This document shows, piece by piece, positions 7,821-29,051 of a DNA stretch of 64,000 nt (positions are counted from its first letter, which is position 1; each line of letters starts with the position of its first letter). This stretch comes from Cellulomonas sp. PhB150 (GTDB lineage Bacteria; Actinomycetota; Actinomycetes; Actinomycetales; Cellulomonadaceae). Location of the stretch: contig NZ_RKHX01000002.1 of assembly GCF_003755175.1 (NCBI RefSeq), positions 124,001 to 188,000 on the forward strand, written 5' to 3'. The notes beneath the pieces were generated by a model. It did no database searches. It was not told the DNA's origin and saw only the letters and a program-made list of their open reading frames with translations. The translations under genes were made by a program, and so were the position numbers.

Positions 7821-8187
7821 GGGGGTGATCGGTTTCGACGGTGATCGTCGAGCCAGGAGAAGCGGGTCGAGGATGCACGGTTATCTCGTAAACGATCCGT
7901 GCAAACCAATAGGTGCCGATTCCAAGCGCACCGACTTCGCACTCGCCGCCTGAGCGAGTCTTCGAAGTCCGTTGGCCTGAGTACGCTCTCGACTCAGTAA
8001 CCAGCGTCATCTAGAGAGCCACTGCTGGTCGTCATCGTCAGTGTGACGGCCGGGACTCTTAGCTGACTGAGCCCGTCCATCTTCCTGTCTGCGGGGAGAT
8101 GGGGGCCGAGAAAATCATCAGCAGACTGCACCCGGAGAAGTCCTGGTTTCTCGTCATCGGACGCGGGTTCGATTCCCGCCACCTCCA
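7821..8187 (+). ncRNA. ssrA: tmRNA (ssrA)
   Basis: tmRNA rescues ribosomes stalled on broken messages and tags the nascent chain for proteolysis. The 5' end GGGGGTG pairs with CACCTCC at 8180-8186 to form the tRNA-like acceptor, with A8187 as discriminator. The T arm GGTTCGATTCCCGCC is at about 8166-8180. The tag frame starts with resume codon GCC at 7915 and encodes ADSKRTDFALAA before TGA 7951-7953. The chromosome continues CCG after the discriminator, so the final A of CCA is not encoded here. TAGGCT at 7776-7781 is a candidate -10 element. The 3' end is the left edge of the downstream island. Confidence 0.96.
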
Positions 8188-8190
8188 CCG
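8160..8190 (+). other. Probable left attachment site in the ssrA 3' end
   Basis: The T-arm and acceptor end of ssrA is a common target for tyrosine integrases, and a decayed integrase begins 77 bases after it. The island's left junction therefore lies here. I looked for another copy of GATTCCCGCCACCTCCACC downstream and saw none. Confidence 0.55.
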
Positions 8191-8266
8191 TTCTGACCTG
8201 CGGAAACGCATGGTCATGTTGACAGGAAGTAGCCTCTCGTTGACGCGGGGGGCTACTTTCGTGTCT

Positions 8267-9447
8267 ATGGCATCCATTCGGGAGCGGGTACGGGCCGACG
8301 GGACGCCGTCGTTCGCGGTGCTGTGGCGCGACCCGGACACCAAGCGGCAGAGCTCGCTGACGTACGACGAGGAAAACGACGCCCGGGTCGCGAAGCACCT
8401 CCTTGAGGTGACCGGTGGGCACACCGACGAGGCGGCGCGGATCGCCGACGCCGTCCGGCACCACGGGCCGTCCGTTGTCGAGGCCGTCGCGGAGCACATC
8501 GACCTGCTGACCGCCGTGGGCCCGGATAACCGCGCGAGCTATCGGACGCACCTTCGCCGACACATCGCGCCGACGCTCGGGTCGTATCCCGTCGCCGTAA
8601 TCTCCTACCGGCACGTCGCAGGGTGGATTCGCTCCATGAGTGACAGCGGTCTGTCGCCCAAGACCATCGCGAGCATCCACGGACTGCTCTCTGCGTCGAT
8701 GTCGACAGCCGTGCGACTTGGGTACCGAACGGACAACCCTTGCGTCGGCGTGCAGCTACGCAAGTCGCAGCTCACGCAGGTCGAGATGACGGTGCTGACT
8801 CGCGGCGAGTTCGCGCTGCTCCTGTCGCATGTCCAACCGCTCTACCAACCGCTGGTGCTGTTGCTCGTTGCGACCGGCCTCCGATGGGGCGAAGCAACTG
8901 CATTGACCCCTGGTGACTCGATCTATTCGCCGAACTGCCCACGCTCCGCGTCACGAAGGCGTGGAAGCGCGACGGTGATCGTCATTGGTATGTCGGCCCA
9001 CCGAAGACCAAGCGAGCGCGTCGGACGGTTTCACTTCCGGACGAACTCGTCGACGTACTCATGCCGTTGGCCGCGTGAAAGCCTTCAGACGCACTCCTTT
9101 TTACCAACACAGTGGGCCAACAGATTTCGTCGTCGCGCTTTTGGACTACGACTTGGACACCCGCGCTCGACGCGGCGACCCACCCAAGGCGTGCCGACGG
9201 CACGCCGGACCCGGACGCTCCGCGACTTAGGCGACGCCCACGAGTGCACGACCTGCGGCACACGCACCCGTCGTGGATGATCGCGGCTGGCACGGACTTG
9301 TTCGTCCTGCAGCGCCGACTAGGTCATGAGTCCATCACCACTACAACGGAGACGTACGCCCACCTGTTGCCGGACCAGCAGGTCGCCGCCGCGGCGGCGG
9401 CAGGACGTGCGCTAGGCGGCCTCAGCCTTGCCCCACGGACTTACTAA
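8267..9447 (+). pseudogene. Tyrosine site-specific integrase, frameshifted and with a stop
   Basis: The first part (MASIRERVRADGTPSFAVLW to GLRWGEATALTPGD) is the arm-binding and core region of a phage/ICE integrase, with catalytic Arg in TGLRWGE. At about 8917 the frame breaks: the sequence reads on in the previous frame as DLFAELPTLRVTKAWKRDGD, as if one base were missing after GAC. An in-frame TGA at 9076-9078 interrupts it again. The remaining domain then reads through HDLRHTHPSWMI and LGHESITTTTETYAHL, containing the H-x-x-R, second His and Tyr positions. Two lesions make it very unlikely to work, so the island is probably stuck. Confidence 0.85.
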
Positions 9448-9927: not shown

Positions 9928-12900
9928 CTAGCCCATGCCGTGGGTGCCTTCATCCTCTGCCCCGACAGTTAAGGACATGGTGGCGTTGCGGAGGCGCATC
10001 TCGCCCCTTTTGTCGAGAATCAAGCCGAAGGGGTCGCGGAACCTAGTGATCGTCGGAGTCTCGCCCAGCGTGTCCGTGACGCGGTAAATGAAATACCGAT
10101 CGCGGTGGACACCGGCCAGGACGATCTCGTTGTAGGAGATCACGAAGGCATCTCTCGGATCGGAACTGGTCGTTGACTTGACCTCGATATAGATGACCTG
10201 GCCACCTTCGACGCTCGAGATGTCGTATGGCGCCAGCTCGTTGTGCTCCGACTCCCACTTCACCTGCGCTGGGTCGAGCCCAGCCTCGACGAGCCGCTCC
10301 CGCTCCTTTTGGTAGGCGAGCCGCTCACCATGCTTGCCGACATCCCGATTGCGCTGGTTCTCCGCGGCTGTCGGCGCCGACGAGGCTCCGCCGCCACCGT
10401 AACCGCCGGTACTTGGCTTGGATGGCACCGGGGAGACGATCGCTCCTGGCTTAGCGTCGATCATTTCGACCTTGGACACGTCGACTGCCGGAGGAGCGAG
10501 CGGGATGACGACAATCGGCTCGGGCGGTTCGGAAGTGACTGGAGGCGTCGGGGTCGCTTGGCCTACGGCGCCCGGTCCCGGTGCAGGGGTGGAGACGGTG
10601 GTGCCCGTGGCTGAGTTCGCAGCGGGCGCTACAGGCAGGTCGAACCCCGGTGATGTTGGAAGTAGACGATTGAGGATCCCTGTCTGCTCCTCATCGAGTT
10701 CTTCGGGCAGGTCCAACCGACGTCGAGCGTCGGCCACATCGACTGGCTCAACCGAGTGCTGGGCAAGCATGCTGTCGCGGTTCTCACCGGTGGTCGTGAA
10801 GATCATGGCGATGGCATCCGACAACGTCGGCACGCCGAGGAACTCCGCAAGTTGGCTTGAGAAGGCGTGCCAATCGGGCTGAGGCCTAATTCCCGGCTCG
10901 AGGCGGAGATAAGCGGTGCCGATTCGACGGTTGACACTCCCCACGCGCTGGACACGGGTATCTATGAAGCACGGCGCAGCCGGACGAGGGATCTCGATCT
11001 CGCCCCGCTTGTAGCGCAGCGCCAACTCCTCGCAGACGACGACCTCGAGCCAGCGCAGGGCCCGTTCGGCTCGTTCGTCGGAACCTGGATGCTCAGCCCT
11101 GATCAGCGCCAGGGTGTGCGGCTTGCGAGCGTCGATCCGTTCGCGGACCCATCGATCCGGCTCGCTGCCGCGCTGGTAGTCACCGATGACGGCATCTGGG
11201 ATGGTGTCGACGGCCTCATCAAGGTCGACGAGTGTCAGGTAATTCGCCAGCCGACTTGGCTGATTGTCGGCTACGAGGACCGGCTCGCGCTCCTCCCATG
11301 CTTCGCGCATCAGGCGGTCGACGGCGTAGGCCGGCTGCGCCACGAACGCCTTGACGCCGTGCTCGGACGTAAGTAGTCGCACGGTCTCTGGTGCGGAGTG
11401 TGGCTGGCTATCGCGGTGCAGGTTGTCGTTGATCCTGCGCTGTACCCACCGGGCGGCGTAGGCAATCTCGTTGCTCACTTCGCCGACTTCATCTGCGTCG
11501 ATGGACAGGCGACCGAGAAGAGTGAGGAGGTCGTCGATGCGCGGCCGAGCAACATCGGTCAGCCCGAGGTCGGCCGCGAGCATCGTGCCGCCCTTGAGTT
11601 GGCGTAGATCGTCGGAAATGAGCGGCAGATGGACGCGGATACCTCGTGGTGTGTCGGGAGCCTCGTACCAGGCATCCTGAGGCACTGAGAGCTCGTCCGC
11701 GTCGCCACGCCTGACTGGGACCCAGGCGCGCGAGCGCAGGGTGTACGCCAAAAGGGAGTCAGTTGTTCGGTCCCGCGGACCGGCGTGACTTACGCTCGCA
11801 ATGCAGTGAAACGTCGCAGTCATGGCGGGCTTGTAGAGGTCCCAGTGCAGGGCCAACTGCCGCCAGAGGGTCATCAGCCGACGCCAGTCCTTGGAGTCGA
11901 GGATCTCCGGAAGACGGTCGAGGCGGTACGACTTGTTGAGCCGTTGAGATGCCGAATGCCCCATCTGGCAGCCGCCAGCCAATTCCTGCGTTCTCGGTTG
12001 GCTCCACCACTGCGAGAACGCCGGATCGCGGCTATGCGGATGGGTCCATCCAGTGTGGTTGCTGGTTTCGCTGTCTATGCGCGGATGCCCAACTACGCCG
12101 AGCATCTCGTAGAAACCGACCGCCTCTTCCTTCTGGTCTGCGTCCTGGGGTGGCTCGACGTCGAGGAACTCAGCCTGGCTGAACGGCCCGTACAGCACTT
12201 CGAGGTCGGTCGACTCGGTCCAGGAGGAGCCAAAGTACAAGTCGCCGCTCCGCCGCAGCTGCTCCCGCTGCGCACCGTCTGAGCTTCGGGCTGGGAGCAG
12301 CACGTCGGCTAGCACCGCTGGTACAGCTTCACCGACGCGCTGCTGGTTGTAGGCCTCGAGGCTGGCCAGTGCCTGGCGCCGGAGCCCGTCGTCCGCGTCC
12401 GGATCCCGAAGCACATGCATGAGGTAGTTCTCGATGATCGTGCGCCACTGGAACGGCTTGACTCCCAGCGCTTCGAGGAACTTGTCCAGGTCGTGCGAGT
12501 CGTCCGGCAGAACAGCGATCGGGACCGGGATGCCTTCTGGGATAGAAGCTTCGCCTCGGCTCCGCGGCAAGAAGACCGGGGTCTGGCCCGGTGCTAGCCA
12601 CTCGCCGTGTGCGGTCGGTACACAACGAACTTTCGCGAGTGCCCTCGTGAACACGTCGCCCATCGCTTCGCGGCAGGCTAGGAGGAATTTGTAGTAGTCG
12701 GTCAGCTCGTCCGGCTCGACTGCGTGCAGGTGTGAGACGAACTCATCGGCACTGAGCTCAGCATCCTTTGCCAAGCCCTTGATCAGGTGGCGTACTGCCC
12801 GCACCCCCTCCAGGTCTGGCCGCAGCATCGTGTTGGGGTCGATGTCGACGAAGCGGTGCGCAGCCGCGGCATCCGGGATGGCCGAAGGCAGCATGCGGAG

Positions 12901-14184
12901 TGCGGCGGGCGATCGGAGTGTGCCGCCGGCGGTCGGGATGAACGCCGACCGAGCCAGCGCACCGATCCACCTCTCGCGAAGCCCGCTACCTGCCCCCGGG
13001 GAGACAAGTGTATTGAGTCCCGGCGTCAGGAAATGGACGGCTGGGCGACTGAACTCGAACCGCTTCACCAGATCGATGGCGTACGTGTCGGCCACGAAGT
13101 TCGCGACCTCGTCGAGGATGGCGTCGTTGAGCAGCCTTGCTTCTGGCGTGTCTGCGACGTGCTTGCGGTCGAGAGTCAGCACCCACTCGGCATGGATCGA
13201 TGCCCTCAGACCCGCGAAGGCCTCCGTCGGGAAGTAGACGCTCAGCGGATAGGGCATCTCGGTCTTCGGTTGCCCAGCCTCGTCCAGTGGCACCCCAATT
13301 GACACTTGGATCGCTTCGACGTCGATCCAGCCCTCGCCCAGAGGCTCGAGCAGCTCGCGTGCAGGCGAGAAGCGATGCCGGTAGATGAGCCACTGTTCGA
13401 ACTGGTTGCCGTACTCAAGCAAGGCGCTCCAAGCGACTCCGTCACGTTGATGGACGATCGTGGCGACGAAGTCCCCGCTCGTGCCGTGCAGTTCGATCGT
13501 CTGGATACTCGGTAGGAAGAGCAGCAGGCTTGGGAAGAGATGCTCCAGGAGGTGTCCTTCGACGGTCTCCCGCGCCATCTTCTCGGTGAGCGGCAGTCGG
13601 ATGACCGTCGTATAGCCCTCGCCCCGGAGTCGCTGGATCTCATCGGCATCTTCGCCGAGGTCGCCGGCCGACAGAGGAAAGGGGAAGGCGTAGACCGGGA
13701 ACCGCTGGCTACCTGGCAGGGCACCGAGGATTCTTTCTACCTCCTCGCGCACCCGTTCGCCATCGAACTGGAACTCGCCGCCCGTGGAGACGATCTGCGG
13801 ACGAGCCGTGATCTCGCCTACGGACATGAAGCCAAGGCCCTTGTGCCCGATCGCCGTGCCAGGACCTTTCGATGAGTCACCGAGTGAGCAGATCGAGCGG
13901 ATCTGGCGATCGCCGAATCCAGCGCCGTTGTCCGCCACGATGAGTGCGGAATCGGTCAGCAGGAAGTATGCGCTGCGTCCCTCATCGAGGCTGCTCTCCT
14001 TGGTGGCGTCGTTGGCGTTCTGGAGCAGCTCAAACGGGTAGCGCCCCGAGTACTGCTGGCGGATGAGCTCCTGCGCCTTACCTCGCTCGCTGAGCTGCTT
14101 GCGCGCATGGTCGGGGTTGCCATCGCGCACGGCACTTCGGATCGACTGCAGCTCAGCAGCCCGAAGGTGCTCGGTTGTGTCCAC
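9928..14184 (-). CDS. Giant Hsp90-like (GHKL) ATPase with C-terminal DUF3883 nuclease-like domain
   Basis: This 1418-residue protein has an N-terminal Bergerat-fold ATPase: N box FELLQNANDA at about 52-60, DNGAGF at 85-91 and GHKGLGF at 113-119, arranged as in sacsin/Hsp90. A long helical middle follows, then a Pro/Thr-rich linker (about 1190-1270) and a DUF3883 domain (about 1310-1400) containing YDISS and IYIEVKST. The D...E-x-K spacing there resembles PD-(D/E)xK nucleases. Proteins of this layout occur in bacterial defence islands, which fits the setting; the exact system is not recognised. GTG 14184 is preferred over an ATG 12 codons upstream because AGGTGGAG precedes it. The gene is alone on its strand and looks intact. 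Confidence 0.78.
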   Translation of the reverse strand: MDTTEHLRAAELQSIRSAVRDGNPDHARKQLSERGKAQELIRQQYSGRYPFELLQNANDATKESSLDEGRSAYFLLTDSALIVADNGAGFGDRQIRSICSLGDSSKGPGTAIGHKGLGFMSVGEITARPQIVSTGGEFQFDGERVREEVERILGALPGSQRFPVYAFPFPLSAGDLGEDADEIQRLRGEGYTTVIRLPLTEKMARETVEGHLLEHLFPSLLLFLPSIQTIELHGTSGDFVATIVHQRDGVAWSALLEYGNQFEQWLIYRHRFSPARELLEPLGEGWIDVEAIQVSIGVPLDEAGQPKTEMPYPLSVYFPTEAFAGLRASIHAEWVLTLDRKHVADTPEARLLNDAILDEVANFVADTYAIDLVKRFEFSRPAVHFLTPGLNTLVSPGAGSGLRERWIGALARSAFIPTAGGTLRSPAALRMLPSAIPDAAAAHRFVDIDPNTMLRPDLEGVRAVRHLIKGLAKDAELSADEFVSHLHAVEPDELTDYYKFLLACREAMGDVFTRALAKVRCVPTAHGEWLAPGQTPVFLPRSRGEASIPEGIPVPIAVLPDDSHDLDKFLEALGVKPFQWRTIIENYLMHVLRDPDADDGLRRQALASLEAYNQQRVGEAVPAVLADVLLPARSSDGAQREQLRRSGDLYFGSSWTESTDLEVLYGPFSQAEFLDVEPPQDADQKEEAVGFYEMLGVVGHPRIDSETSNHTGWTHPHSRDPAFSQWWSQPRTQELAGGCQMGHSASQRLNKSYRLDRLPEILDSKDWRRLMTLWRQLALHWDLYKPAMTATFHCIASVSHAGPRDRTTDSLLAYTLRSRAWVPVRRGDADELSVPQDAWYEAPDTPRGIRVHLPLISDDLRQLKGGTMLAADLGLTDVARPRIDDLLTLLGRLSIDADEVGEVSNEIAYAARWVQRRINDNLHRDSQPHSAPETVRLLTSEHGVKAFVAQPAYAVDRLMREAWEEREPVLVADNQPSRLANYLTLVDLDEAVDTIPDAVIGDYQRGSEPDRWVRERIDARKPHTLALIRAEHPGSDERAERALRWLEVVVCEELALRYKRGEIEIPRPAAPCFIDTRVQRVGSVNRRIGTAYLRLEPGIRPQPDWHAFSSQLAEFLGVPTLSDAIAMIFTTTGENRDSMLAQHSVEPVDVADARRRLDLPEELDEEQTGILNRLLPTSPGFDLPVAPAANSATGTTVSTPAPGPGAVGQATPTPPVTSEPPEPIVVIPLAPPAVDVSKVEMIDAKPGAIVSPVPSKPSTGGYGGGGASSAPTAAENQRNRDVGKHGERLAYQKERERLVEAGLDPAQVKWESEHNELAPYDISSVEGGQVIYIEVKSTTSSDPRDAFVISYNEIVLAGVHRDRYFIYRVTDTLGETPTITRFRDPFGLILDKRGEMRLRNATMSLTVGAEDEGTHGMG

Positions 14185-14361
14185 TCCGGATCTCCACCTG
14201 TCGTTAGCAAACGGGTGCAACTACCCACCGATGCTCAGTCCACGGGAGGCGACGACGGCCAGGCGATGTTCGCTGGGGCCGGCCCTCAGTGGCTTCACCA
14301 CCGGATGAATCTGGCACGCATCGAGATGTGCGCGGCCCGAGGGACCGGCACGAGTGGGTGC

Positions 14362-21539: not shown

Positions 21540-22580
21540 CTACTCCATCGGCTTGACTCTGGTCTCGATAAAGGCGATCTCGTCGGAGTCGAGCTCGTAC
21601 TTGGCGTACAACTGGGCATCGATCTGCGGGATCGGCACCGACCAGTCAATGTCAGACCCCGCGGTGAAGTCCTGCAGCGGGACGTGCTTCCATTTGATGG
21701 CTGAGTTGTGCTGGGTGGTCTTCAGGATTCCGAGCATCGCCCTCGCGAACTTCGTCCGCATGTAGGTGGCGCACGCCTCAGCCGCAGCCTCGGAGTCGAA
21801 CTTGCCGACGGACATGAACGTCTGGGTGAAGCCGGTGCCGGGCCCGACGACCGTGGGCATGCCGACGACCCTGCCCGACTTGACGGCGGCTCCATCGGCG
21901 CCGGCGATGATCGCCTTGTAGCTGCCGACGACCTCGGGGGCGACCACGTAGTCCTTGCGGACCCATCGCACCGCTCGCTTCCGATTCGCCAGGCCCATGA
22001 TCCGCACGTACTCGTGGCCGTCTTGCGGCTCGGACGTGAGGCAGACCTCGCCCATCCGCTCGAACGTGTTGGTCTTCATGCGCAGACCGCTCGAGGCGGG
22101 GATGCGCTCACGCAGCTCCGGATGGTCGACAAAGACCTGCTCGTTCCAGGAGCAAGGGTGCTCGGTGATCATCGAGGCCAGGGACTCAGTTGAGTGCGCA
22201 GACACCGAGTCGACCAGTGACTTCCCCGTGTCTGACAGGTGTGAGTGGCTCCCGATAGGGCCGAGGACGCGCGTCGCGTCGCGATAGGTCACGACGATCC
22301 CGCCATCAATCGCGGTGCCGGGGAAGATCGTGGAGGACGAGGGCTCGAAGATGGCAACTTTGAGGTGCTCGTCGGAAAGAGTCTTCTCGTTCCAGGACTT
22401 CGGGGTCTGGCCCGCGTTCGACAGGAATCGGGCGGGTGTCACCAGCACAGCGCGCTCGGCGACCGCGAATGCCACATCCATGAAGAGGTGGTAGATCGGC
22501 GGCGACTTCGCTTCGTTGTCGCCGATCAGGTCATCCTGGTATGGCGGGTTGCCGATGACGACGTCGAACTTCTTGCTCAT
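21540..22580 (-). CDS. N6-adenine DNA methyltransferase subunit with NPPY motif (Eco57I-like)
   Basis: The 346-residue protein opens MSKKFDVVIGNPPYQDDLIG, so the catalytic motif IV of a gamma-type adenine methyltransferase sits at its very start. Motif I is absent. The rest (IYHLFMDVAFAVAERAVLVT, AIFEPSSSTIFPGTAIDGGI and a C-terminal WSVPIPQID region) fits the tail and target-recognition part of Eco57I-type enzymes. ATG 22580 lies two bases after the helicase stop, so the two are coupled. I infer that it needs an SAM-binding half from another subunit, most likely the product of 25863-26510. Confidence 0.8.
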   Translation of the reverse strand: MSKKFDVVIGNPPYQDDLIGDNEAKSPPIYHLFMDVAFAVAERAVLVTPARFLSNAGQTPKSWNEKTLSDEHLKVAIFEPSSSTIFPGTAIDGGIVVTYRDATRVLGPIGSHSHLSDTGKSLVDSVSAHSTESLASMITEHPCSWNEQVFVDHPELRERIPASSGLRMKTNTFERMGEVCLTSEPQDGHEYVRIMGLANRKRAVRWVRKDYVVAPEVVGSYKAIIAGADGAAVKSGRVVGMPTVVGPGTGFTQTFMSVGKFDSEAAAEACATYMRTKFARAMLGILKTTQHNSAIKWKHVPLQDFTAGSDIDWSVPIPQIDAQLYAKYELDSDEIAFIETRVKPME

Positions 22581-22582
22581 GG

Positions 22583-25500
22583 TCAGTTCCCTTCCGTCAG
22601 CATCTGGTCGAGCATCGCCTGACGCTCCTCCGTGGTCATGCGTGCGAGATTTCCGACCGTGAAGTGCCCGGACTTGTCGAGCCACGCCTTGCGTTCCGCA
22701 ACGCCGCCGGAGACTGCTTCCAGGGTGATGCGGTGCAGGATCTCGTTGTGGCTCATTTCGAAAATCTGTGACGTCATGATGTGCTGAAGTCGCTCGTCCT
22801 GGTCGGGGAAGACATCGGCGAGCCCCGTGTCGAGGCGGCGCACGAGTTCCATCAGAAAAAGACCGGCGGTCGAGAACAGGTCCGCGAATGTCTTCTCCGG
22901 GTCGGTGAAAATATTTGGGTCCTCGGCTTCGAGAACCTCGACCATCAGCTTGACCACGGACTGCGGAGTGAAGACCAGCGACGTCTTCTGCTGCGGGATG
23001 TATGCGAAGATGTCTTCGGTTTGCGAGTCAGAGAAGTAGTCGGCGAGGGCTTCCTTCTTGTTCAGGAACTCCTGGACGGCCTGATCGAAGACAGCCTCGT
23101 CGAACATGCCCGGAACCTTCGTCACCACGCCGTTCTCGTCGGTGACGTCCTGGCCGTCGCGCAAGAGCCGGAACTCGGCTTCGCTGATGCCGGTGATCTC
23201 CTCGAAGACGTCGTTGGGCGTGTAGTCGTCGAAGTTTGACAGCCGGATGCCTCGGTCGCCGTAGGCCATGAGAAACATAGGGATCGTGCGCGCGAAACCT
23301 CGGAGGTGCGAGCGGGCGTCGTCCATCGTCTTGTTGGCGCGCTTCTGTTCCTTCTTGGTCTCCTCACGCGTCACCACCTCGGGCACGATCAAGTCCATCG
23401 TGTCCTCGACGATGGCGAGGATGTTCTCCTTGAACGCCTCCGCCTGCTCGGCCTTCTTGGTCTCGATGATGCTGGCCTCGGCATCGGTGGCTGCGCTCTT
23501 GAGTTCGTCCTCGACGTGCTTGCTGGCGATCTTGTGCTCGGTGTACGCGCGCTCGACACGGTCCTTGATGACCTGCTCTGTCCGCTTCATGTCCCGCTCG
23601 ACCTGCGCGGCGGTGAGCCCGTACTCCACCTTAAGCTCTTCGCGCTTGGCCCGACTCTGCTCGGTCACCGCCTTCGCGATGGCAACTGCTGTCGTGGACG
23701 CTGGCGCGTCGGGCTCAGCGGTTGGGATGTCCTCGATGCGGTAGACCGGCTTGCCGAGCTTCTCCGTCTTGTTGATGACGGTGGCCACGTCGACCTGCAC
23801 GCTTCCGTCGGGGTCGGTGACAACCGGCGGCTGCGGGATCTCGATGGGGTCGCCCGCCTTGACTTTGCCTTCCTTCGCGGTGGGCAGCTTGTCCAGGATC
23901 CCCTTGATGTGCTCGGAGTACCGGAAGATGCCGGCGACGTTCGCGAAGAGCAGGTTCGACAGGAACCCCCGGCGCACGACCTCGCGGGCCTTGAATACCT
24001 GCGGGAAAGTCAGCACCTGGGAGGCGTCGAGTTCGATCATCTCGCCCTCGGCGTCTTCGCCAATGACAGGGAAGAAGTTCAGAAGCGCGCGGATGTTCTC
24101 CTGGCGTGCTCCGGGGTCCCCAGAGGGGTTCGGGTGGAGGTTGTTTGCAAAGGCGTCGAAGATCGTCAGCGTGCGCTCGGGGGCGAAGTCGAAGATGTAC
24201 GCGTTTTGCTTCCGGTAGACGTGTCCGGCGCGCTCGAAGATGCCGGGGTTCTGAGCGCGGAACGCCGCCTGCATGTACTGGGCCGGTGAGGACAAGCTCG
24301 ACAGCATGATGACCGCGGTCCACTCGGGCACTGTGACGCCCACCGTCAACTGCCCGACAGACAGGGTGATGGTCTTGCCGTCGTTCTTCTCAGCCTCCGC
24401 GATCGCCGTTCGCACCTTGTCGAGTGACTTGCCGACGGCGACGACGTCAGTGTTATCGTCGCTCTTCCCGTCACCGGCGGCCAAGACGATTGTGTAGTCC
24501 TTGAAGACCTCGTGACCCTTGAGGAGCTTTTCCAGAGCCTTCGCGGAGGCGACACGGTTGAGCAGCCAGAACGAGTGGCGGATCTCGTCGCGCAGCGCGG
24601 GCGTGGAGAACGGGTACTTTTCATTGGCCGCCAGGCAGTCGAGGAACTTGATGATCTCGACCTCGTGCTCGAAGAAGCCGTTCTCCTTGGTTGCGAAGAA
24701 CTCGTTCAGGTCGAACGTGTAGTCGATGTTCGCTTCGTCCTCAGCGATAGCGACACCTTCGGCGAGGCGCTCGGTGATCATCCGCGAGATTTGGTAGGTC
24801 AGCAAGTTGAGTTTCGGCAGGGCGGCGTACGGGTTCTCCTGACCGTTGTCTTGCCATTCCTTGCGGGCTGTCTGCTCGTCCTCGTAGGTCCAGTTGAAAA
24901 TCTGGTCCTGGTCGAACTTGCCCGAGGCCAGGGCTTTGAACGGTGTGCCCGACAGGTGCAGCGTCCAAGTGCGCTTGATCTGGTCGAAGGCGACGTCGGT
25001 CTTGGTGGTGTCGATGCCCTCGTGGGCCTCGTCGATGACGAGCAAGTCCCAGTCGAACTTGGCGATGTGCTTGAGCTTGTCGTACGCACCACCGAAGTAC
25101 TGCGAGCCCTTCATGTCCTGCAGTGAGAGGAACTCCACGATGCGGGGGTCCTCGTCCTGGTGGTTGCCCGAGTAGGTAAACCACTGGGCGCGGGTCATGG
25201 GCGCGCGACCGGCAAGCGAGGGCGACTCCGAGACAAAGCGGAAAGTGGTCTGGTGGCCGATGAAGCGCGTGAAGTCGTCGAACCACGAGTTCGCGATCGC
25301 CGGGCGGTTCGTGACGATCAGGACGCGGCGCAGGTCCAGGGTCCGCATCAGGTCGTACGTCGTGAGCGTCTTGCCGAACCGTGGCTTGGCGTTCCAGAGG
25401 ACAGCCTTCTTGCCCGCCTTGAAGGCTTCCTCCGCCTGGTCGACGGCTGCTTGCTGCTCGGGGCGCAAGGTGTAGTCGTCCGTACCGCTACTACCCGGCA

Positions 25501-25870
25501 GGGCAGGGAAGTCCTGGCCGGCGAAGTCGTTGAAGTAGTCGAGCGACGCCTTGGGTGCAGTGGCGAAGTGGTGCCACTCCGTGCGCTTCGGGTGGGTCTC
25601 TCGCTCCACGCTCTGCTGCGCGAGGTAGGCGTGGAAGTCCGTGTCCGTGAACCGTCCGCCGCTTTCTGACGTGAACAGTGCCCGTCGGGACCACAGCTTC
25701 TTCTTTTCGACGGAGAGCTGGGATGCCTGCTGCGCGATGCGTATGTCAGCGGTCTCCTGCTCGGTGTAGCCGATCTTCTCCCAGCCGTCGTACTTGGGGA
25801 TGTCCGGAGTTGTCCAGGAGTAGACCAGCGGGGTGATCTCGCGAAAGGCGCTGATCTTCGGGCTAGACAT
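22583..25870 (-). CDS. SF2 helicase with GIY-YIG-like N-terminus and degenerate methyltransferase region
   Basis: The 1095-residue protein starts with a likely GIY-YIG/T5orf172-type domain (about 14-100: VYSWTTPD, WEKIGYT, then R44). Next is a type III-like SF2 helicase: Q-motif LRPEQQAAVDQA at 135-146, Walker A AKPRFGKT at 161-168, DEAH at 280-283 and SGTPF at 307-311. A charged coiled coil (about 730-870) follows. At about 962-1010 VFTPQSVVKLMVEVLE then FADLFSTAGLFLMEL mirror motifs X and I of an adenine methylase, but the Gly-rich PxxGxG is lost. It overlaps the upstream methylase gene by eight bases and abuts the downstream one. A translocating restriction subunit is the likeliest role. 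Confidence 0.8.
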   Translation of the reverse strand: MSSPKISAFREITPLVYSWTTPDIPKYDGWEKIGYTEQETADIRIAQQASQLSVEKKKLWSRRALFTSESGGRFTDTDFHAYLAQQSVERETHPKRTEWHHFATAPKASLDYFNDFAGQDFPALPGSSGTDDYTLRPEQQAAVDQAEEAFKAGKKAVLWNAKPRFGKTLTTYDLMRTLDLRRVLIVTNRPAIANSWFDDFTRFIGHQTTFRFVSESPSLAGRAPMTRAQWFTYSGNHQDEDPRIVEFLSLQDMKGSQYFGGAYDKLKHIAKFDWDLLVIDEAHEGIDTTKTDVAFDQIKRTWTLHLSGTPFKALASGKFDQDQIFNWTYEDEQTARKEWQDNGQENPYAALPKLNLLTYQISRMITERLAEGVAIAEDEANIDYTFDLNEFFATKENGFFEHEVEIIKFLDCLAANEKYPFSTPALRDEIRHSFWLLNRVASAKALEKLLKGHEVFKDYTIVLAAGDGKSDDNTDVVAVGKSLDKVRTAIAEAEKNDGKTITLSVGQLTVGVTVPEWTAVIMLSSLSSPAQYMQAAFRAQNPGIFERAGHVYRKQNAYIFDFAPERTLTIFDAFANNLHPNPSGDPGARQENIRALLNFFPVIGEDAEGEMIELDASQVLTFPQVFKAREVVRRGFLSNLLFANVAGIFRYSEHIKGILDKLPTAKEGKVKAGDPIEIPQPPVVTDPDGSVQVDVATVINKTEKLGKPVYRIEDIPTAEPDAPASTTAVAIAKAVTEQSRAKREELKVEYGLTAAQVERDMKRTEQVIKDRVERAYTEHKIASKHVEDELKSAATDAEASIIETKKAEQAEAFKENILAIVEDTMDLIVPEVVTREETKKEQKRANKTMDDARSHLRGFARTIPMFLMAYGDRGIRLSNFDDYTPNDVFEEITGISEAEFRLLRDGQDVTDENGVVTKVPGMFDEAVFDQAVQEFLNKKEALADYFSDSQTEDIFAYIPQQKTSLVFTPQSVVKLMVEVLEAEDPNIFTDPEKTFADLFSTAGLFLMELVRRLDTGLADVFPDQDERLQHIMTSQIFEMSHNEILHRITLEAVSGGVAERKAWLDKSGHFTVGNLARMTTEERQAMLDQMLTEGN

Positions 25871-26510
25871 CGGCTCTCACTTCTTCGTGGACGGTCTCGA
25901 TCTGGCACGCCTGATAGCTCGCGTAGTTGGTGAAGTCTAGGGTGTCTCCGGCCAGCGAGGAGAGCGCGAAAGGCATACGCTGCACCATCCCGGGCGCTGC
26001 GTCGATCCGGTTCCACCACGAGAACTGGATGTCTTCACCCGTGGTAGTCTTTCCGGTCAAAGTGTTGCCGGAGACGATGTTTCGGTCAATGAGGAACGCT
26101 GCCGCCTTGCGCAAGACAGTGTCGCGTTTGCCTGGATTGCCGCGCTTCTGGTGAAAGCGCAGGAACTCGGCGAGCATGATCGCTTTCGCGTCCTGGTGGT
26201 TGTCCTCGAGCAGCTCGACACCGTAGATCGATGCCAGCGCGAACAGTGACTCCTGTCGCCACTGCTCGGCGGGGTACTGCTTCTCGATCGCATGGAGCTT
26301 GCGGCGCAAGATCGCCACGAGGAAGTTGCCGTCACCGGCTGCGGGCTCCAGGAACGTCTTGTCGACAAAGCCGGGGCCTTCCAGGTCCTCTTGGACCAGG
26401 TCGAGCATCTCTTCGACCATGTGGCGGGGAGTGAATACCTCTCCGTAGGTCCTGACGCGATGCCGCGACTTCACAAGCTGCTCCTCGACAGTCTTTTCCG
26501 TCACCGTCAT
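25863..26510 (-). CDS. DNA methyltransferase SAM-binding subunit (motif I only)
   Basis: The 215-residue protein carries YGEVFTPRHMVEEML (motif X region) and a perfect motif I, FLEPAAGDGNFLV, then IYGVELLEDN (motif II/III), and ends soon after NIVSGNTLTG, just where a full enzyme would go on to NPPY. The NPPY motif is instead on the third gene of the operon. ATG 26510 (MTVTEKTVEEQL) is the best start; longer readings are composed of improbable Arg/Pro-rich sequence. It is the first gene of the leftward operon methylase half - helicase - methylase half. Confidence 0.8.
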   Translation of the reverse strand: MTVTEKTVEEQLVKSRHRVRTYGEVFTPRHMVEEMLDLVQEDLEGPGFVDKTFLEPAAGDGNFLVAILRRKLHAIEKQYPAEQWRQESLFALASIYGVELLEDNHQDAKAIMLAEFLRFHQKRGNPGKRDTVLRKAAAFLIDRNIVSGNTLTGKTTTGEDIQFSWWNRIDAAPGMVQRMPFALSSLAGDTLDFTNYASYQACQIETVHEEVRADV

Positions 26511-26609
26511 TTGTGGGCTCTCATGCCGGGCGGTATGCACGCAGCGAAGCCGTCGCGGCGCGGGGGTTTTGGCTCGCGTTCGCCCGCATGACTTGGTTGG
26601 CACACCGAC

Positions 26610-27518: not shown

Positions 27519-29051
27519 GTGCCACGTGCGTGGATGGTGCGGGCTGGGCGCGACGGTGAACGGGAAGCAGCTGCTTTGGACCAATCCCGCTCGATAGCGG
27601 GATGGAGCGAGTTGGCCGACATCTCTGACTGCCGTTCGCGGGAAGAAGTGAAGGCCGCGATTCGAGAGGCATACGGCGACCAGATCTCGGCAGCCGTGCT
27701 CGGTAACTGGTCCGGACAGTTGTGGCGATTTCTCGAGGTCATGCAGGTTGGGGATCTCGTCGTGATGCCTCTGAAGAAGACCAGCGACTCGGTTGCCATC
27801 GGGTATGTAGAAGGCCCCTACTTCTACGACGCCGACCAGCCCGCCGGCATGCGCCATTCCCGGCCGATACGGTGGGTGCGGCCCGTGGTCGCCAAGTCAG
27901 AGCTCGGCTCCGACCTCCTTGCATCACTTGGTTCGTTGCTAACTGTCTGTGAGTTGTCTCGGCGCAACATTGCGGCGCGTCTGGCTCAGGTTGCTGAGGG
28001 ACACGACGACCCGGGCGCGCAGATGCAGGACTACGATCCGTTGCCCGCGAACGTAGGCGAGCTCGTCGACGTGGCTCCACGCAGCATGACTGTCCGCGAA
28101 CTTCTTGACCTGTGGGGCTTCAGGCGTCGTACTGCTCGAATCGTGGAGGAGGTGACCGACGACCTCGCCGAGCTGGGACTTCTGGCGGTGCCGTCTATCG
28201 CTGCAGGGTGGATCGATAGTCTCGTTGAAGTTATTCCGGTACCTGGGCAGACCGGGGAGGCATCCGAATCCGCGTCAGCGGTCAGCGAGGCCGTGGACGT
28301 GGCAGAAGCGACGGCTGAGGCAGTCATCGGCGGCGCCGTGCACTACTCGGTCAGCACCATGGACACCGCACTTTGCGAGGTCATGAGCGCCCGGCCCGAC
28401 GACCTGCTCGCAGTCGCTGTGACCAACATGGCGTTGAAGGACTACTCCCAGATCGCAGTCGTAGACGCCGATGACCGACTGATTGGAGCAGTGTCGTGGG
28501 AGTCAATCGCCCTCGCCTGGATGTCGGGCAGTCCCAAGGTCGTGCGCGACGCGATGCGATCAGCACCATCCGCGGCGCCAGAGGATGAGTTGCTGCAGCA
28601 GGCGGAAGTGATATACCAGCACGGTTTCGTCTTGGTGCGTACTCACAGAGGCGAGGTACAGGGCATCATCACGAGCGCGGACCTAAGCCGTCGGTTCGGC
28701 AACGACCATCGACCCATTGTGCTCCTTGACGAAATCGAGCGGCGCCTGAGCAGCCGGATCATGGGCTACTGCACGACCGACGATCTCAAAGACAACGGCG
28801 TTCACGTACCCTTATATGGAGCCACGTTGGGCACCTACGTCACGGCGCTTTCCAAGGCGCCACTCTGGAGCAAGCTGATGTGGCAAGGACTGGCCCAAGG
28901 TGAGTTCCATGAACAGCTCGAGCGGGTCCGCGTCATTCGCAACCAGCTCATGCACTTCAGCCCGGACCCAATCACCGCCGACGACATTGAAGTGCTGGAG
29001 AAGACGGCGCGGGTGCTGCGACTTGTAACGTCGGACCGCCAGCCGAGCTAG
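27519..29051 (+). CDS. EVE-like / winged-helix / CBS-pair / HEPN multidomain protein
   Basis: The 510-residue protein joins four parts. Residues 3-150 (AWMVRAGRDGEREAAAL, LWRFLEVMQVGDLVVMPLK, IGYVEGPYFYD) match the PUA/EVE-like N-terminus found on Mrr-type modification-dependent restriction enzymes. Residues 190-237 (MTVRELLDLWGFRRRTARIV) look like a winged helix. Residues 279-393 form two CBS repeats. Residues 405-505 form a helical domain with RNQLMH (R474, H479), the R-x4-H signature of HEPN ribonucleases. No Mrr nuclease domain is present. GTG 27519 follows a GGGGGT ribosome site. I infer a defence protein: base-modification sensor plus nucleotide-sensing CBS plus RNase effector. It stands alone at the right end of the island. 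Confidence 0.72.
   Translation: MPRAWMVRAGRDGEREAAALDQSRSIAGWSELADISDCRSREEVKAAIREAYGDQISAAVLGNWSGQLWRFLEVMQVGDLVVMPLKKTSDSVAIGYVEGPYFYDADQPAGMRHSRPIRWVRPVVAKSELGSDLLASLGSLLTVCELSRRNIAARLAQVAEGHDDPGAQMQDYDPLPANVGELVDVAPRSMTVRELLDLWGFRRRTARIVEEVTDDLAELGLLAVPSIAAGWIDSLVEVIPVPGQTGEASESASAVSEAVDVAEATAEAVIGGAVHYSVSTMDTALCEVMSARPDDLLAVAVTNMALKDYSQIAVVDADDRLIGAVSWESIALAWMSGSPKVVRDAMRSAPSAAPEDELLQQAEVIYQHGFVLVRTHRGEVQGIITSADLSRRFGNDHRPIVLLDEIERRLSSRIMGYCTTDDLKDNGVHVPLYGATLGTYVTALSKAPLWSKLMWQGLAQGEFHEQLERVRVIRNQLMHFSPDPITADDIEVLEKTARVLRLVTSDRQPS

Follow-up and report, generated by a model that had tools for sequence, protein, structure and literature searches.

A divergent DS-11 relative in Cellulomonas sp. 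PhB150, with a CBS pair and a putative HEPN domain fused to a restriction-type N-terminal domain

Introduction

DS-11 is a one-protein CBS-HEPN phage defence that was found by DefensePredictor, validated in 2026 and modelled by AlphaFold3 as a dimer with ATP (PMC13092281). In that work it was demonstrated that a Y157A substitution in the CBS part, as well as mutations in the HEPN domain, led to a loss of defence, and the adenine derivative bound by the CBS pair was said to be one that "remains to be discovered"; the trigger is left unnamed in the account given there of DS-11 (PMC13092281). CBS and HEPN domains joined in one chain had already been described in 2013 by Anantharaman et al., who put forward the idea of a nucleotide-responsive RNase; some of their fusions carry an HD domain, and in their description of the fusions no modification reader is named (PMC3710099). 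CoCoNuT type IV systems form one family in which YTH-like domains are found in some types and HEPN RNases in others, but they are built around a McrB-like GTPase and coiled coils, and CBS goes unmentioned in the text on them (PMC11090510). In a survey of BREX systems, RAMA and ASCH/PUA domains were treated as readers of modified bases, and the text of that survey mentions HEPN, but not CBS (PMC12839542).

Here we describe a gene in a stretch of 64,000 nucleotides from Cellulomonas sp. PhB150 (contig NZ_RKHX01000002.1, positions 124,001 to 188,000), which is referred to as the window. Like DS-11, the protein that it encodes (the window protein) is a single chain with a wHTH-like start, a CBS pair, a C-terminal RN-x3-H motif and a tyrosine, Y309, that corresponds to Y157; unlike DS-11, it has about 185 extra N-terminal residues, and it scores 213 bits against a profile cut-off of 260. 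With restriction proteins of the Mrr type that carry the PDC-S02 N-terminal domain (N-domain) it shares that domain, but it is without the Mrr_cat nuclease and its effector is CBS-HEPN. The single-chain order of reader, wHTH, CBS and HEPN was not found in the open-access literature, preprints being outside the scope of the search.

Results and Discussion

The features of the gene and its surroundings are collected in Table 1. The longest listed ORF that overlaps the gene on the opposite strand has 186 aa, and full-length relatives of the window protein were found at three other loci (denoted by L numbers), with an identity of 73% (L001), 36% (L003) and 36% (L055). The first-pass annotation had read the gene, from the letters alone, as an EVE-like N-terminus of restriction type, followed by a winged helix, two CBS repeats and a C-terminal domain bearing a HEPN signature, with no DNA nuclease. 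The gene is real and its four parts held, and so did the absence of a nuclease: in a Pfam search of the window protein CBS alone scored above cut-off, with no match to any nuclease domain (Mrr_cat and PD-(D/E)XK included), to a McrB-like GTPase or to HEPN, and an Mrr_cat profile gave no match to the four fused proteins of the window, L001, L003 and L055. The N-domain and the core were modelled separately, because the full-length alignment (A7) misplaced the short N-domain rows; the AlphaFold2 model of the core (residues 177-510, 8 sequences) had a pLDDT of 74 and a pTM of 0.42.

Table 1. Features of the gene and of the window (positions are those of the window).
Feature	Residues	Position	Strand	Basis or remark
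Whole gene, 510 aa	1-510	27519-29051	+	single open frame of 510 codons; GTG start; similarity kept from about residue 3
N-domain of Mrr/McrB-type restriction proteins; probable EVE/YTH-like modified-base reader	3-165	27525-28013	+	PDC-S02
wHTH-like domain	188-240	28080-28238	+	alignment A1; AlphaFold2 model
Variable low-confidence linker	244-275	28248-28343	+	pLDDT <50
CBS pair (Bateman module)	280-393	28356-28697	+	Pfam PF00571, 1e-9, two stretches
Y309	309	28443-28445	+	aligns with Y157 of E. coli DS-11
D388, second CBS repeat (T-x-x-D)	388	28680-28682	+	39/39 cores
C-terminal helical domain, HEPN-type	398-503	28710-29027	+	model helices; NCBIfam DS11_antiphage match
R474-N-Q-L-M-H479, HEPN-type R-x4-H	474-479	28938-28955	+	R/N/H identical in 39/39 cores
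Three adjacent R-M-type frames		21540-26603	-	MmeI-type MTase (under cut-off), ResIII helicase, Eco57I methylase
tmRNA gene, then at once an integrase-like frame		7821-9280		ARAGORN; Phage_int_M 23.7 bits, cut-off 27
1430-aa protein		9928-14220	-	NOV_C (NO VEIN C-terminal); Sacsin match just under cut-off

The annotation had also claimed that no described system has this order of domains. That claim stands for the added N-domain, but it falls for residues ~185-510, which are those of a divergent DS-11 relative. Residues 193-500 were matched to positions 1-305 of the NCBIfam profile NF053863 (DS11_antiphage) at 4.1e-63 and 213.3 bits, and the reading of the whole as an unknown system is thereby ruled out. 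Because the window protein and four other fused proteins (L001, 216 bits; L003, 249; L055, 202; L058, 253) all score below the curated cut-off of 260 bits, the window protein is, by its sequence, a divergent relative of DS-11 and no DS-11 equivalog. With the same profile the stand-alone protein of E. coli KE47 scored 404.9 bits and that of Rhizobium 381.8. The KE47 protein, which has a tyrosine exactly at position 157, aligned with Y309, is likely DS-11 itself, and its gene was found (at least 80% coverage, at least 99% identity) in 126 of 5,426 complete E. coli genomes. The window protein is 28% identical to the stand-alone protein of E. coli, 27% to that of Rhizobium and 25% to that of Methylobacterium, the range over all stand-alone rows being 20-33%.

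The wHTH-like domain is common to the window protein and stand-alone DS-11, and the length of the linker behind it varies among homologues. The two-repeat CBS module of the first reading was recovered by Pfam in two stretches, and in a Foldseek comparison the CBS pair resembled that of MJ0100 with a TMt of 0.88 and an rmsd of 1.7. The core model gave 346 PDB matches at E<=0.001, of which the best 50 listed were mostly CBS chains, and entries with c-di-AMP, ATP, AMP/ADP and SAM are among the matches. Position 309 is aromatic in 34 of the 39 aligned cores (F in 20, Y in 14; the exceptions being L in two, I, V and R), and D388 is identical across all of them. These 39 cores are those of 41 loci minus L119 and L141, which were dropped from the residue count and from the tree described below because their cores are split over two frames (L119, 9665-10578 (+); L141, 9732-10799 (-)); the split cores are either decayed copies or sequencing errors.

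R474 and H479 had been picked out as an R-x4-H signature, and both residues lie where the first reading placed them, at the end of a long helix within a helical bundle of the AlphaFold2 model. The conservation of the motif among homologues, on which the HEPN assignment had been made to depend, was also observed, as R474, N475 and H479 do not vary in the aligned cores. R-x4-H by itself was discarded as evidence, for the window protein contains two of them and 52% of 2000 shuffles contain at least one; the RN-x3-H form occurred in only 0.6% of 2000 shuffles of the window protein. No HEPN entry was among the 4 PDB profile matches. We regard the C-terminal domain as HEPN-type and as a putative RNase, by which RNA would be cleaved.

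We propose, with a probability of about 0.5, that the window protein is a defence protein in which a modified-base reader gates an adenine-nucleotide-dependent effector of the DS-11 type (wHTH, CBS pair and HEPN RNase) in one chain. The CBS pair would bind an adenine nucleotide and the protein would dimerise, as Y309 and D388 suggest here and as is supported for E. coli DS-11 by the published model and by Y157A (PMC13092281). The N-domain and the wHTH would then bind DNA bearing a foreign base modification, a step to which the partners of the N-domain and of DS-11 cores point. Binding may rearrange the dimer and so bring its two HEPN active sites (R474/H479) together, whereupon RNA would be cut and growth or phage production would stop. 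The net effect would be that a sensor of modification-dependent restriction is wired to an RNase, not to a DNase.

That the N-terminus is of a restriction type, as the first reading had it, was borne out by a match of residues 4-171 to PADLOC PDC-S02 (8.5e-51), which covers the first half of the 346-position profile; in addition, a profile for type II restriction enzymes was matched in part by residues 22-145 (8.8e-12). There are 35 invariant columns in the N-domain across the nine fused proteins, W5, W29, W64 and W119 being invariant in all nine, and W29, which lies in "AGW", may be the counterpart of a cage tryptophan of YTH domains. The family is presumably the one named COG4127. In the text on CoCoNuT systems that name is given only among the aliases in an McrB search (PMC11090510). 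Among 37 distinct carriers of the N-domain at loci L001-L081 (38 rows in the table of carriers, in which the window gene is listed twice), 17 match an Mrr_cat profile that was itself built from three of these 17, eight hold the motif GPPGTGK[ST], four are the DS-11 fusions of the window, L001, L003 and L055, and eight were left unassigned by the profile and the motif. Pfam confirms Mrr_cat in L004, L005 and L060, and AAA_5 in L061 and L063. The model of the N-domain, for which only two Mrr-type viral relatives were usable (L142, L143), was built from four sequences and was weak (pLDDT 60, pTM 0.60). In a Foldseek search with this model 47 of the 50 listed PDB matches were YTH-domain entries, in which a few proteins are represented by several structures each and some bear no title but Mmi1, and another was the archaeal protein MJECL36; the best E was 0.02, the rmsd was at least 5 Å, and none of the 193 matches of this low-confidence model reached E<=0.001.

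YTH domains are chiefly readers of m6A in RNA, and being the best structural matches of the N-domain, if by a weak model, they favour an alternative in which the N-domain reads modified RNA (tRNA, rRNA or mRNA) and guides or licenses the RNase on that RNA. YTH is a member of the EVE superfamily of modified-base readers (PMC11090510). The alternative is also favoured by CoCoNuT type IV systems, in which YTH-like domains occur together with HEPN RNases and RNA is the predicted target (PMC11090510). Nonetheless, the same N-domain is found on the Mrr_cat proteins (17/37 carriers) and on the GPPGTGK[ST] proteins (8/37), the other partners of DS-11 cores, RAMA and GmrSD_N, carry names that come from DNA restriction, and the fold match is weak; we therefore consider the reading of RNA unlikely. 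In the reading that we prefer, the N-domain, which going by the model is probably a putative EVE/YTH-like reader of a modified base, would read that base most likely in DNA, as the partners of the N-domain and of DS-11 cores suggest.

These partners were counted in a class sample, a profile search of 394 genomes of the class at E<=1e-15. It gave 25 places, which are 24 genes in 22 of the 394 genomes, because L109 and L112 are pieces of one gene. Six of these genes are N-domain fusions (the window, L091, L094, L096, L097 and L110), three are RAMA fusions (L058, L092 and L093; 78-82 bits against a cut-off of 35.2) and 13 stand with GmrSD_N, so that 22 of the 24 have one of the three partners. 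One is alone (L090, a core without any of the three) and one is broken (L141, with a RAMA-like stretch seen by eye and without a Pfam match). Further N-domain fusions were found beyond the class sample, in Nocardioides sp. Root1257 (L001), at L003/L113 and in a Streptomyces plasmid record (L055). Apart from the 394-genome class sample, the counts of architectures were gathered from several searches that overlap, and they should not be taken as estimates of prevalence.

At all 13 GmrSD_N loci the core lies directly downstream of a gene for a GmrSD_N protein of ~605-662 aa. GmrSD_N was recognized by Pfam in three of the 13 partner genes (L126, L129 and L137; 87.8-93.6 bits), and the other ten partner proteins are 47-91% identical to that of L129. 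For three shorter GmrSD-like frames, which the 1.5 kb flanks had truncated, the scores were 22.8 and 27.8 bits, with no match for the third (cut-off 33.2), and the complete genes of L126, L129 and L137 passed the cut-off. The neighbouring genes were called by a GC3 rule, which missed the core itself in 10 of 41 loci (L057, the five loci L083-L087, L114, L120, L139 and L140), and every ORF of the 41 loci was then searched for a GmrSD_N homologue. Like the window protein, the RAMA fusions have a DS-11 core behind an N-terminal restriction-associated domain, but RAMA replaces the PDC-S02 N-domain. The GmrSD_N pairs also combine the core with a restriction-type partner, which is there the product of a separate upstream gene. 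RAMA, GmrSD_N and the N-domain are all modules of modification-dependent restriction, GmrSD_N presumably having a sensing role here. In L058 (the same as L118, 9976-12258 (-)) the core is preceded by RAMA and by one more N-terminal stretch, which to the eye resembles RNase H. In genome G1097 an N-domain fusion of DS-11 (L124) and a RAMA fusion (L123) are found on a single contig, ~0.39 Mb from each other.

When the 39 cores were placed in a maximum-likelihood tree with a midpoint root, the nine N-domain fusions formed one clade (96/95), the three RAMA fusions another, separate from it (100/100), and the 13 GmrSD_N loci a third (100/99). Two loci of the GmrSD_N clade had been labelled as alone because their core frame was uncalled, and their partner gene was then shown. 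The tree tool warned of long branches that meet inside the N-domain clade (the window and L001 with L124 and L128) and of long ends (L055, L115-L117). A single gain for each type of partner is enough to account for the tree, and the 25 partnered genes therefore stand for about three independent events in Actinomycetes. Furthermore, the combinations of partners were kept while the cores fell to ~30% identity, as is expected for working combinations. The N-domain fusion clade of nine, the RAMA fusion clade of three and the GmrSD_N gene pairs are new here.

It might also be suggested that the CBS pair is the sole trigger, through a change in adenine nucleotides induced by the phage, and that the N-domain and wHTH do no more than tether the protein to DNA or silence it. 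DS-11 is, after all, one protein without a fused reader, in which Y157A kills defence (PMC13092281), and Y309 and D388 are kept in the window protein; since stand-alone E. coli DS-11 defends without a fused reader, such a reader is inessential to the effector. The explanation leaves the restriction-type partners of 22 of the 24 class-sample genes without a cause, however, and we give it a low chance, preferring a modified-base reader that gates the effector.

The window gene had been described as intact among broken genes. Near it are a tmRNA gene with an integrase-like frame and genes of R-M type, and the broken genes are represented by relaxase/helicase remnants recognized by eye. The GC content of the stretch that holds the gene is 0.623, against 0.692 for the window. 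The tmRNA gene, for which ARAGORN made an overlapping, starred second call as well, lies ~20 kb from the window gene and may, together with the integrase-like frame, mark where a genomic island has its attachment site. The other border of such an island was sought as a direct repeat of the 3' end of the tmRNA, and the idea was given up, as the sequence further on in the window shares no word of at least 14 bases with this end. Two of the three R-M-type frames match parts of one type IIG profile, and the three are either a natural operon or a split gene. The 1430-aa NOV_C protein is possibly another defence gene. The defence context that had been supposed is thus supported by the R-M-type genes nearby, and by defence neighbours in relatives: L129 is flanked by BREX type 2 genes (PglZ 911 bits, BrxC/PglY 1473, BrxHI 1067 and BrxD 693), at least two of the neighbour families of L129, the locus on which PADLOC was run, recur at L130, L131, L135 and L136, a type I R-M system adjoins L128, and a DrmD-like gene adjoins L127.

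Such neighbours could mean that the protein is a guard, whose reader senses the modification that the host puts on its own DNA and keeps the RNase inactive until loss of this modification, by anti-restriction or an incoming phage, releases it. R-M-type genes adjoin the window gene, and BREX-2 genes adjoin loci of the GmrSD clade (L129, and L130, L131, L135 and L136 by shared neighbour families). Nevertheless, the nine fused genes do not have an R-M gene beside them throughout (inspection by eye of the 20 kb surrounding L001 and L113 showed none), and joint action of the R-M genes of the window with the fusion is assumed by this explanation. We hold it to be quite improbable, and retain the sensing of a foreign modification as the preferred reading.

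Among the genomes of relatives the full-length fusion was present in two of 198 (its own and G061); 22 of the 198 match somewhere, and most of those beyond these two match the N-domain alone. An apparent 249 DS-11 carriers among 297 genomes was rejected, as none of the 297 reached the cut-off and 13 of 14 control genomes also matched; only the first six rows of this search (L024-L029) were kept, the lower matches being mainly to the CBS part. Carriage of the fusion by phages was rejected, as neither the fusion nor E. coli DS-11 had a match in 50,697 phage records, and no viral contig was found for the fusion or its N-domain. Stand-alone DS-11 genes were found on six IMG/VR viral contigs (L082-L087), thus the effector may travel on phages or prophages or be caught in their contigs, and the E. 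coli KE47 gene adjoins a phage integrase. L054 (NZ_CP141089.1), a plasmid in PLSDB, is a record of 4.94 Mb, which by its size looks like an E. coli chromosome. That the protein has no role in defence and is a nucleotide-regulated RNase for stress control, in line with the proposal of 2013 that HEPN-CBS fusions are nucleotide-responsive regulators of RNA stability (PMC3710099), is highly improbable in view of the patchy distribution, the island-like location, the defence neighbours in relatives and the fact that DS-11 itself defends (PMC13092281).

Conclusions

From the fusions and the gene pairs, modified nucleic acid emerges as a possible cue upstream of DS-11, and with sensor and effector in one chain the question of the DS-11 trigger becomes directly testable. 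More tentatively, and with the doubt on the larger side, DS-11 may be an exchangeable RNase effector of modification-dependent restriction, whose CBS-HEPN core was joined in evolution to no fewer than three sensors of modified DNA that are unrelated to one another (the Mrr/McrB-type EVE/YTH-like reader, RAMA and GmrSD_N). This would be a class of "type IV" immunity in which a foreign DNA modification is met by RNA cleavage, controlled by an adenine nucleotide that perhaps comes from the modified phage DNA or RNA itself. If the proposed gating is true, modification-dependent restriction would be widened from the cutting of DNA to the cutting of RNA, within a single protein.
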